Positions 38,666-42,003 of a stretch of DNA of 64,000 nt are shown one piece after another; the stretch's first letter is position 1; every line of letters begins with the position of its first letter. The notes beneath the pieces are model-generated. The model worked only from the letters and a program-made list of their open reading frames with translations, was not told the origin of the DNA and made no database searches. The stretch is from Phaeocystidibacter marisrubri (GTDB lineage Bacteria; Bacteroidota; Bacteroidia; Flavobacteriales; Schleiferiaceae): contig NZ_WBVQ01000001.1 of NCBI RefSeq assembly GCF_008933165.1, positions 930,001 through 994,000 of the forward strand, written 5' to 3'. Both the position numbers and the translations under genes were made by a program.

Positions 38666-41464
38666 TCAGTACCATCCTCGTCTTGCTCGTTGTATGATGT
38701 CGTCTTGATCGAGGTTGAGAATGAAGCGAATCTGCGAAATGTAGTTCGGCTGCGAAATGTGGTTGGTCAAATTACTTTGAATAGGGAAGTAGAACTCAAG
38801 GAAATCAGGCACAATGCAAAGCCGGATGCCGTAATCCCAGTATAATTGCTGCTGTCTTCCTGCATACCCTAGATCACCAAAGAGTCCAATTCCTTTCCAA
38901 ATGGGAATATTGGTGGAGATACTGGCTAACCACGTGTCCGAATAAACTTGTGTAGAGGTTTTGAATCCACCGTCGCTGATGAAAAACTGTTGACTCCATA
39001 CTCCCGATGAATCCGATCGACCAATGAAGCTGTAATCGTACAGGTAATCTTGTGTTCCACTCATTCCGAAGGCAAAGAAGGGTTGGCCTTCTGGTTGGAT
39101 GTTGTGTACAAATGCTCCTGCAAAAACTCGAATTCCCAACCACTGTCGATTTGGAAGCATGAATCTCTGACGGAAGGAAGCACTCACCTTGGTAAATCGA
39201 GAAGAGACTTGAAGATCTGCTTCTAAGAAAGAAGGAGCGAGTACATTTTGTTCTTCTCGGCGATAGCGCAGATCGGTTATCCAATAATCGGCATTGGTTT
39301 CTGTAACGGGTTTCAGTTCGTCTTCGAGTTTCAATTCGCGTTGTACGCCTACGCCTCTCAATCGAATACTCTGTTGAACGGTACTGCGGGGGGATGACTT
39401 CCGGATGTAGAGGTTCATACCTGGACTCATTCGACTATAGGCTAGATTTTCGTCGTAATGGAAGTATTTACCATACAATCCTACATTAAAAGCTTGCAGC
39501 CAGCCAGAGTTCAAAGGATGATAGTACTTGATTGACCCCATTCCTGTTAACTCACCAGTATTGGTGCTGTATTCTGGACCAATTCGATACTCCCAACGCT
39601 TGGGAAGAAGGGTTTTGTTGTAGAAAACCATTCCCAGTAGAATACCGTCGTAGGCATTGTATTTTAAAGATGGCAACCAGTTAATTTGCGTTTTTTTGCC
39701 CTGATCCAATCCCGTGTAAAAATTGAGTCGCAGGGGTTCAACCGCTTGAAACAGCCCCGTCGGTTTCCTCATGTGATCCTGTTCGTCAAAGTCAGGTAAA
39801 TTCCCGTTGGGATCAAGCTCCACCTTGCTGTAGTATTCCGTGTGGAGCTGAATTCTTGTAGATCCAAGGTGACCTTCGTGCCATTCTTCCAAGACGGGAT
39901 TTCCATCCCTGTCGTAGCCTAGTGTGGCATATGGAATGGCCACTTCACCGTGATTCGTAACATCAGCAGTAACCATGTAGCTGCACTGATCTACGTCATC
40001 TAGACTGTAGTCCACCAGCTTGGTCGTGGAGTAAATATCGCCTAAAACCCAATCGAGTTCTACGTTGGAATAATAGCGAATAGGAGCCACGAACTCCTGA
40101 GGTCCGGTAGGCGTTCCTGATTCCGTCTCTATTAATCGACGCAAACCTCTTTTAAAGGCAACCTCTCCCACATATCCTCGAATGGTGCTTAGCAGCAGCG
40201 CCGCCTTTCCCTTCAACACCGCTTCGCGATTTAGAGGAGCGAATGCAAGTGCCGAATCGGATAGAGGTTGATCCAATCCTTGGCGAGCCATGTAGAGGTA
40301 AAGCCAGCGATGGAAGTAGGTGGGTTTGAGATCCTCAACATCCAAGAATCGTGCGACGAGTGAGTTGGAGTATTCGCCCAATAACTTCTCTTCAGGATAG
40401 GCCGTAGCTAGGAAGTCATATCGGTGATAATGTGCGGTTCCTACAGTGAGCCAAGGATCTTTTAATTCATTCACAAACAACACTCTACTATAAAGTGCTT
40501 CTATGAATGATTCAATCACTCTCGATTCAAAAACGGCATCATTTTCAGAGTATTCAACCACTAATAAACCCGGTCGTGAACGGAGGGCGCCTTTGTCTTC
40601 AACTACCCAAACGTTCATATTCTCTGGCCAAATATCACCGTATAAATTCTCGATGTATTTCGCCAAGCGACCCACGGTTTCCGTCATGGAAATAGGTGGG
40701 AGGTTTTCGTGATATAGCCAATGCACGGTTCCGTATTCATCATCTGTTGTTGTGAAGTCGAATAGTTGATTGGACTGTACAAAGAAAGGTTCGGAAGTCC
40801 GTTGAACAGACACAATCTCCGCATCGGTTCGAATGCCGGGATAATCTGGAGTTACAACGGAATAGTTTCCTGAATTGTGAATGATTAACTCAGAGCGATA
40901 GGGTTTGTCGGCGGTGTATCCATTCACGTTTGCCGGTTTAGTCTGAGGATCATTATTTACAGAATAGGCGAAGAAGGGGCGATTCATCGCAAAGAAATGA
41001 TCGTCGATGCCTTCACCTGTATATTGGCGTTGTGGAGGGAAGAAGCGATATGAATTTGTAACCGTTCCAACGGTCAGCTCAGCATTCGTCGGCACATCAA
41101 AATGAGACTTGCTGTCGGATATTGAGAATCTGACGCTTGAAGCTTGTGGAAACGAAAGACGAATTGCACTATCCTCAATCAGCGTTCCTTTTTCCCAATC
41201 TTCGGCAAAGTTCAAATCAACATCTTGTTCATTCAGTAATTCTTGAAAAAGATGAGAATGAGGGTCAGACCAAGCTGAGATATCATTATAAGCTTCTAAC
41301 GCTCCCGATTCTAGATACAGTTCACTGGATTGTTCAACCCTAAATTCGTGAGAATCAGGATTAATCCAAATCTCAATGCGTTGATTCAGAAGGGTGTCGT
41401 TACTCTGAGCAACCGCTAGAGTAGAAGAAAGCGTGAGTGGAAAAAGTAGAGCAGAGATGCGCAT
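38666..41464 (-). CDS. M1-aminopeptidase-like protein lacking catalytic residues, with C-terminal beta-barrel-like domain
   Basis: A 932-aa exported protein (signal MRISALLFPLTLSSTLAVA). Residues 25-550 resemble the M1 gluzincin architecture: the region VFESRVIESFIEALYSRV aligns with the zinc motif HExxH, but the expected His-Glu...His are Glu-318, Ser-319 and Glu-322, and DPWLTVGTAHY (337-346) has Val where the catalytic/zinc Glu of WLxEGFA stands. Residues 580-932 are rich in alternating strands with aromatic girdles (FIGRSDSSGV, FFAFGMSG) and resemble an outer-membrane barrel ending in Trp-Tyr. It is probably an inactive surface or outer-membrane protein. The promoter box lies only 5 nt before its start. 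Confidence 0.75.
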   Translation of the reverse strand: MRISALLFPLTLSSTLAVAQSNDTLLNQRIEIWINPDSHEFRVEQSSELYLESGALEAYNDISAWSDPHSHLFQELLNEQDVDLNFAEDWEKGTLIEDSAIRLSFPQASSVRFSISDSKSHFDVPTNAELTVGTVTNSYRFFPPQRQYTGEGIDDHFFAMNRPFFAYSVNNDPQTKPANVNGYTADKPYRSELIIHNSGNYSVVTPDYPGIRTDAEIVSVQRTSEPFFVQSNQLFDFTTTDDEYGTVHWLYHENLPPISMTETVGRLAKYIENLYGDIWPENMNVWVVEDKGALRSRPGLLVVEYSENDAVFESRVIESFIEALYSRVLFVNELKDPWLTVGTAHYHRYDFLATAYPEEKLLGEYSNSLVARFLDVEDLKPTYFHRWLYLYMARQGLDQPLSDSALAFAPLNREAVLKGKAALLLSTIRGYVGEVAFKRGLRRLIETESGTPTGPQEFVAPIRYYSNVELDWVLGDIYSTTKLVDYSLDDVDQCSYMVTADVTNHGEVAIPYATLGYDRDGNPVLEEWHEGHLGSTRIQLHTEYYSKVELDPNGNLPDFDEQDHMRKPTGLFQAVEPLRLNFYTGLDQGKKTQINWLPSLKYNAYDGILLGMVFYNKTLLPKRWEYRIGPEYSTNTGELTGMGSIKYYHPLNSGWLQAFNVGLYGKYFHYDENLAYSRMSPGMNLYIRKSSPRSTVQQSIRLRGVGVQRELKLEDELKPVTETNADYWITDLRYRREEQNVLAPSFLEADLQVSSRFTKVSASFRQRFMLPNRQWLGIRVFAGAFVHNIQPEGQPFFAFGMSGTQDYLYDYSFIGRSDSSGVWSQQFFISDGGFKTSTQVYSDTWLASISTNIPIWKGIGLFGDLGYAGRQQQLYWDYGIRLCIVPDFLEFYFPIQSNLTNHISQPNYISQIRFILNLDQDDIIQRARRGWY

Positions 41465-41487: not shown

Positions 41488-42003
41488 TTATATGCGCTTC
41501 AATTGCTGCTTAAACATCTTGATTTGATCGTCAAGCATTCCGCGAGTGTCCAACTTCTTAGCTTCTGTGAGAAGTGCTTGTGCTTCACGCTTACGGCGAC
41601 GAGACATGGCAATTCCTGCGAGTTGGAGTTTGGCCATAGCCTGATCTTGCTTCATTCTCAATCCAGTGTTCAAAGCCTTGCGCATGTAGCTCTCCGCTTT
41701 ATTCATATTGGTTTGAGATTCAAGAACACCTTTGAGGAAGTACCAGTACGCCACTTGACCCTTCGTGAGCGATTGATCGGGATTTTTAATGGCATTCACA
41801 TGTTTAGCCGCTTTAGCCATGTCTTGTTTACGCATGTACCACAAGGCCATAATCATGCGCTCGTGACGGAAGTAGGTGAAGAGCACAATGCCCGAAAGCA
41901 AAGTGATGAAAATTCCGTTTCCGATGTGTCCATCAGCAAATTCGATGATGGCCCATACAAGAACGAGAGCGGTAAGTCCGAGACGAATGATTTTATTCAA
42001 CAT
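41488..42003 (-). CDS. Small membrane protein with TPR-like helices
   Basis: A 171-aa protein: two hydrophobic segments (about residues 8-22 and 28-44), then a soluble helical part in which AYWYFLKGVLESQTNMNKAESYMRKALNTG and QAMAKLQLAGIAMSRRRKREAQALLTEAKKLD have the alternation of TPR helices. Proteins of this shape are conserved in Flavobacteriia and have no assigned function. It lies 23 bp upstream of the M1-like gene on the same strand. A perfect -7 box (42037-42044) lies 33 nt upstream. Confidence 0.78.
   Translation of the reverse strand: MLNKIIRLGLTALVLVWAIIEFADGHIGNGIFITLLSGIVLFTYFRHERMIMALWYMRKQDMAKAAKHVNAIKNPDQSLTKGQVAYWYFLKGVLESQTNMNKAESYMRKALNTGLRMKQDQAMAKLQLAGIAMSRRRKREAQALLTEAKKLDTRGMLDDQIKMFKQQLKRI

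Follow-up and report, generated by a model that had tools for sequence, protein, structure and literature searches.

We found that the minus-strand gene at positions 38666–41464 of the window (the whole stretch of 64,000 nucleotides of Phaeocystidibacter marisrubri DNA that was analysed) encodes a pseudo-peptidase within a widespread family. In this protein, a predicted M1-aminopeptidase fold whose zinc site has been lost is followed by a barrel that is modelled as Omp85-like. Moreover, where the site is lost, sequence constraint shifts from the peptidase to the barrel. The reading that we favour, to which we give roughly even chances, is that of an outer-membrane protein combining an M1 fold with a 16-strand Omp85-like barrel, whose periplasmic M1 half, formerly active, would now be a non-cutting binding module for the barrel.

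The gene is an uninterrupted open reading frame of 932 codons, and the plus-strand frame over the same positions is broken by many stops. By eye, its N-terminus reads as a Sec-type signal peptide, and the lipobox cysteine is absent. The features of the gene, with the evidence for each in brackets, are the following:

38666–41464, minus strand: whole open reading frame, 932 amino acids plus stop, encoding an M1-like pseudo-peptidase with an Omp85-like barrel (frame and relatives)
41408–41464, minus strand: likely signal peptide, residues 1–19, ahead of Gln20 (by-eye reading; helix 2–20 in the model)
40760–41392, minus strand: M1-like N-terminal lobe, residues ~25–235, boundary approximate (model; M1 superpositions begin at residue 24–25)
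39995–40759, minus strand: M1-like catalytic-type domain, residues ~236–490, boundary approximate (profile match, model and superposition)
40442–40513, minus strand: dead zinc site, residues 318–341, with Glu318, Ser319, Glu322 and Val341 replacing H, E, H and E (alignments)
38714–39691, minus strand: Omp85-like 16-strand barrel, residues ~592–917 (two models and fold searches; weak sequence support)
38933–39100, minus strand: 56-residue L6-like loop between strands 11 and 12, residues 789–844, containing DYLYD and Arg816 (models and alignment)
38669–38713, minus strand: basic C-terminal tail beyond the last strand, residues 918–932 (alignment and model)

In the basic tail, R926, R928 and R929 are invariant across the 32 aligned relatives.

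Searched alone, the protein gave no match in Pfam (where a match to PF01433 was absent), NCBIfam or the PDB sequences, so that its kinship with M1 peptidases becomes visible only through its relatives or a model. A profile of 32 family relatives matched glutamyl aminopeptidase among solved structures (4kx7, E 4.3e-10), and the same M1-barrel profile matched puromycin-sensitive aminopeptidase (E 1.1e-9). PF01433 was matched by 17 of the 32 relatives at E up to 1 (best 2.4e-4), and by 4 of 4 intact copies, with a best E of 5.2e-16. The AlphaFold2 model of the protein (mean pLDDT 84.0, pTM 0.84) could be superposed on M1 aminopeptidases, the highest Z being 26.0 (8sw0; rmsd 3.1, 466 residues aligned), and according to this model the N-terminal part of the protein is an M1-aminopeptidase fold. 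The M1-like layout put forward in the original prediction is thus retained. Residues ~25–590 share fold and domain order with puromycin-sensitive aminopeptidase (8sw0), ERAP1, PepN and tricorn factor F3; unlike these enzymes, the protein is without zinc ligands and catalytic residues and has a membrane-type barrel appended.

The loss of the zinc site is evident from alignment. At residues 318, 319, 322 and 341 the protein has Glu, Ser, Glu and Val, in gap-free alignment with H, E, H and the third-ligand E of its intact relatives, which confirms exactly the replacement of HExxH and of the third-ligand Glu that had been proposed at the outset. HExxH was missing at the zinc-site position in all 35 family orthologues examined, one of which has a chance HEAFH elsewhere. 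We take a GxMEN-type motif and a catalytic Tyr to be features of active M1 peptidases. The former has no match in the protein, which reads SRPGLLVVEYS in the region where the intact rows of our alignment are GGMEY-like; in the column taken as that of the catalytic Tyr, all 46 intact rows have Tyr and the window's protein has Lys418. None of the three zinc ligands survives in 39 of the 54 dead rows; 14 rows keep one and a single row keeps two, and the four active-site columns vary freely among the dead rows. The dead relative L081:4942–7773 reads HRVLH, with both His retained and the catalytic Glu and third ligand lost.

Two findings could have told against the original prediction, a model lacking the M1 fold or zinc ligands supplied from other positions. 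The model has the fold, and a search of conserved residues (not a metal-site prediction) brought up no evident replacement zinc site among those conserved in ≥80% of the 32 dead relatives. Beside the varying zinc columns, Trp338 and Gly342 are kept in the window's clade, as are Arg394, Gln399, Lys420, Trp472, Cys494 and Trp528. Of the residues in the former cleft, the dead relatives strongly conserve only a few, and this weak conservation lends no support to a specific binding role.

The same architecture also occurs with its site intact. Across 100 aligned M1-barrel proteins, H, E, H and E were all kept in 46 and not in 54. The 24 rows from outside the order were intact without exception (24/24), as were all rows of groups f11 (10 rows), f7 (2) and f14 (2). 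Dead rows fall in f1 (the window's family), f2, f3, f4, f6, f12 and f13, and f15 contributes one dead and one intact row. Site losses lie in some Flavobacteriales lineages, and the dead state is common to many genera of several families. Three changes were counted on the 100-row tree and two on a 75-row tree, and a single origin of 42 dead rows was not rejected (AU p 0.442).

Several sequences were dropped before the 54/46 count: L134 (the same locus as L058), L163 (the same genome place as L168), L161, L162, L165 and L166 (truncated pieces, all found within the order and lacking HExxH), L034 (intact, near L032), and the fragments L036, L073, L079, L085, L086 and L089. L003–L031 and L037–L051 were left out except for L026, because most of them come from the same genomes as L052–L086; the set of 35 orthologues therefore overlaps to a large extent with that of the 32 dead rows. 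The genome of the window also holds a separate M1 protein of 618 amino acids (L002, 205–2061), a soluble enzyme in which the HEATH motif and the third Glu are both intact and which was left out of the 100 rows; given this enzyme, M1 chemistry has probably not been lost from the cell.

The intact protein L058 (Flavobacteriales BWSM_116) shares most of its neighbour genes, in order, with the dead L056 and L057, and thus represents the same locus in the opposite state. It is a positional orthologue with an intact site, and its identity to the window's protein is 42% in the barrel (153/368) versus 26% in residues 236–490 (65/253). A locus that occurs in both states amounts to a natural experiment separating the role of the barrel from that of the peptidase, and suggests that the barrel is what selection keeps. 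In four f1 genomes (G009, G021, G010 and G012), an extra intact M1-barrel copy (L032, L033, L034 and L035) was observed beside the dead one.

To describe the distribution of the gene, genomes were searched at several taxonomic levels. The single protein found no relative among the genome contigs, and the profile query found 39 loci. In the window's family (group f1), the gene was present in 36 of 88 genomes, two of them with the gene split over contigs; several genomes are incomplete. It had no long match in any of the 50 genomes of the three small-genome genera of f1 (G006–G008, G038–G059 and G062–G086; 50/50), and it was present in 36 of the 38 remaining f1 genomes. Since it is missing from whole genera, the gene is not essential everywhere. 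Matches to the barrel profile occur in 210 of 395 sampled genomes of the order, in 206 of 295 sampled from the class Bacteroidia, and in 21 of 118 sampled phylum-wide, all 21 inside the class (the listing leaves out 77 genomes without a match). With relatives so common in Bacteroidia, and many of them carrying an intact site, evolution appears to have retained the barrel while giving up the enzyme. As the barrel is this common in the order, a tractable laboratory species belonging to it should allow the roles of barrel and peptidase to be told apart. In the single-contig genome G381, the gene (L252, 1971–4800) is split into three open frames, through either assembly error or true decay; a barrel-only gene considered in that genome turned out to be this gene in pieces, with M1 stretches present.

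We then compared sequence conservation in the two halves. Among the dead rows of the window's family (32 rows), pairwise identity averaged 27% in residues 236–400 against 48% in the barrel; of 496 pairs, 494 were less identical in the M1 part (residues 236–490) than in the barrel. The 18 dead rows of other groups (one f15 row included) gave 33% and 41%, with M1 below barrel in 149 of 153 pairs. The reverse was observed for intact proteins: 53% and 34% for the 24 intact rows of the class (M1 below barrel in 0/276 pairs), and 75% and 44% for the 12 intact rows of f7 and f11 (0/66). The divergent dead rows L142, L143, L144 and L150 are omitted from this comparison. Given that M1 and barrel were compared within pairs, overall divergence is not the explanation; the pairs share ancestry and are not independent. 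In the one dead pair with measurable dS, both members of which come from a single metagenome bin, dN/dS was 0.11 for the M1 half against 0.05 for the barrel. Saturation of dS affected one or both parts in 9 of 13 pairs, and the seven remaining dead pairs were all saturated in their M1 part. The M1 half of dead copies thus seems to be still under selection.

The C-terminal part bears out the original prediction of an outer-membrane-type barrel, in that ~340 residues form 16 strands in both of two models, the last strand being short. The longest loop (56 residues) lies between strands 11 and 12, with residues 806–820 at pLDDT below 50. In Foldseek, all 50 matches listed for the barrel model are titled as Omp85 proteins or complexes holding one (BamA, TamA, FhaC, CdiB, Sam50), the best being BamA 8xnb (E 3.1e-7); TM-scores among the matches listed are modest, at 0.33–0.48 by query, with rmsd 7.8–12.6. 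A second fold comparison also ranked 8xnb highest (Z 17.0, 280 aligned, rmsd 4.7), and all matches listed there are of the Omp85 kind except an LptD model and 5ayw, titled 'a membrane complex'. Structure prediction and fold comparison gave an M1 fold for the N-terminal half and an Omp85-like barrel for the C-terminal half.

At the level of sequence, the barrel was compared by hhalign with 12 TamL-like Omp85s of related genomes (so labelled by length), which gave 76.2% for all rows, 78.0% for dead rows and 34.0% for intact rows (E 2.2e-5, 1.8e-5 and 4.3e-4, respectively, in single comparisons). The alignment runs along nearly the whole barrel, a permissive setting being needed. There was no profile match to 14 BamA-like proteins (0.3–1.1%) or to short Omp85s (0.4–1.7%); a FadL control on the barrel gave 0.1–0.6%, and the M1 part used as negative query at most 0.3%. 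No PF01103 match was obtained for the protein, nor for any of 26 barrel rows with E values as high as 10 allowed, and the barrel profile matched none of the PDB sequences. DUF5686 was considered as kin of the barrel and set aside as weak (2/26 barrel rows, best E 0.013; hhalign 4.3–6.8%).

The (V/L)RG(F/Y) motif is absent from the barrel, which in the alignment has DYLYD where a TamL-like protein has IRGW. A plain pattern search, among the rows shown, found the motif in 6/6 BamA but missed it in 5/6 TamL-like and 6/6 DUF5686 rows, so its absence is not decisive. Arg816, which lies beyond DYLYD in the loop, is present in all 32 dead rows of the window's family (32/32), in all 46 intact rows (46/46) and in 18 of 22 other dead rows. 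Where POTRA domains would be expected, residues 25–590 align to M1 enzymes; Omp85 members without POTRA are known. The protein shares 16 strands and a long 11–12 loop with the Omp85 superfamily (nearest by fold to BamA, TamA, FhaC and Sam50, and by sequence to the TamL-like set), but differs in having an M1 domain at the place usually taken by a POTRA-type N-terminus, no PF01103 match and no (V/L)RG(F/Y). By these models, the C-terminal third is an Omp85-like barrel; given the modest TM-scores and the weak sequence link, we label it Omp85-like rather than filing it as an Omp85 member.

If the models hold, the 16 strands and the position of the longest loop, which corresponds to L6, would leave both termini of the barrel on the periplasmic side. 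By this reasoning, together with the analogy to PlpD, a periplasmic M1 half is more likely than one at the surface. The proposed display outside the cell thus finds no support: the even strand count and the placement of the loop point inward, and in PlpD, the nearest analogue studied, the enzyme domain is periplasmic. According to PMC11116518, the patatin domain of PlpD, once thought to be exported, was found only in the periplasm. Under the reading that we favour, the ancestor would have been a membrane-anchored periplasmic aminopeptidase; catalysis would then have been lost in lineages including the window's organism, with the M1 half retained in a non-cutting form. Sitting where a POTRA domain would, this module may bind a polypeptide or a partner protein, and may either pass what it binds on to the barrel or gate the barrel. 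The function of the protein is probably to bind a substrate or partner for the barrel, and the peptide binding or transport put forward in the original prediction is possible. More tentatively, and as a possibility that we rate clearly below an even chance, the proteins could form an unrecognised Omp85-like family of Bacteroidia with M1 in the POTRA place, in which a Flavobacteriales peptidase became, at least once, a non-catalytic substrate receptor, an extra factor for outer-membrane assembly or export beside BamA and TamL.

Among the other explanations, the barrel might serve outer-membrane homeostasis in the manner of PlpD, its M1 half being ligand-free and merely stabilising or dimerising. 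PlpD, itself an enzyme-Omp85 fusion, dimerises and its loss alters lipids, according to PMC11116518, and such a role would fit the weak constraint that dead lineages show in their M1 half; yet the protein has no patatin domain (no Pfam match, and an M1 fold in its place), its M1 half is full-length in the dead orthologues examined, and dN/dS is 0.11 there in the one measurable pair, so that we consider this role rather unlikely. Somewhat less likely still is an exported M1 half that captures peptides or other ligands on the outside of the cell. A former enzyme half ahead of a barrel does recall autotransporters, among them AaaA of P. aeruginosa, a surface-tethered aminopeptidase (PMC3426542). 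However, the barrel models as an Omp85 type and not as an autotransporter type, its strand number and L6-like loop place the N-terminus on the periplasmic side, and PlpD has its patatin domain only in the periplasm (PMC11116518).

It is very improbable that the M1 half is a decaying relic drifting toward loss, even if its identity lies below that of the barrel in dead lineages and the gene is in pieces in one genome. Frames are open through the contained M1 region in all 35 family orthologues, several M1 residues are near-invariant, the single measurable dead pair has a dN/dS of 0.11, and many genera of several families have the dead state in common. We give as little credence to an enzyme still working with an altered site or another metal. 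One or two ligands are kept in 15 of the 54 dead relatives, HRVLH of L081 among them, but the free variation of the four columns in dead rows leaves no common new site evident. Set beside these alternatives, a non-cutting binding module in the periplasm remains the reading that we prefer.

If this reading is right, an M1-containing architecture is added to the Omp85 superfamily. Omp85 members that have been studied act in outer-membrane protein assembly, in protein movement across the membrane or, in the case of PlpD, in lipid handling. We found no description of an M1-Omp85 protein in the open-licence PMC literature, and we assume that public annotation of family members as M1 or gluzincin peptidases may exist. 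PF00149, which occurs in one of the comparisons below, is presumably the calcineurin-like phosphoesterase family.

Three known systems resemble the architecture of the window's protein. In PlpD, as described in PMC11116518, an enzyme-derived domain likewise lies N-terminal to an Omp85-type barrel, but it is an active patatin with POTRA, whereas the domain of the window's protein is M1-like and catalytically dead. Heinz and Lithgow (2014) distinguished ten bacterial Omp85 subfamilies (PMC4104836); their 'Metallo' subfamily also has a metal-enzyme-type domain ahead of the Omp85 barrel, but that domain is PF00149 and not M1. AaaA of P. aeruginosa similarly ties an aminopeptidase to an outer-membrane barrel, but is an active, cell-surface autotransporter (PMC3426542). 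Two further candidates were set aside on the basis of their published descriptions: BamM, considered as a possibly metallopeptidase-like subunit of the BAM complex of F. johnsoniae but described as a lipoprotein at the cell surface whose N-terminal domain has a PPIase fold (here, an M1 fold and a barrel), and the elastase FP0506 of F. psychrophilum ('gluzincin'), a 296-residue lipoprotein of different layout.

As a functional clue, the neighbouring genes yielded nothing specific and no pathway; they look like housekeeping genes. The next gene downstream on the same strand, which we read as fused 2-oxoacid dehydrogenase E1 subunits, is found with this E1-like reading in 17 of 53 dead loci and at the single L058 locus (listed twice, as L058 and L134). 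Upstream neighbours that we name PspC-like, often with a PadR-like gene by the same naming, directly precede the M1-barrel gene in 6 of 49 dead loci and in 6 of 22 intact ones (with L058 again counted twice), and a link to envelope stress is possible. This PspC-like gene was observed at L056, L057, L058, L061, L065, L070, L121, L122, L142, L145 and L155, in both dead and intact lineages. In the window itself, a gene of 171 amino acids that appears TPR-like by eye lies at 41488–42003 on the same (minus) strand, its end 23 bases upstream of the open reading frame; when neighbouring genes were compared, it clustered with genes from only two other loci, L052 and L083.
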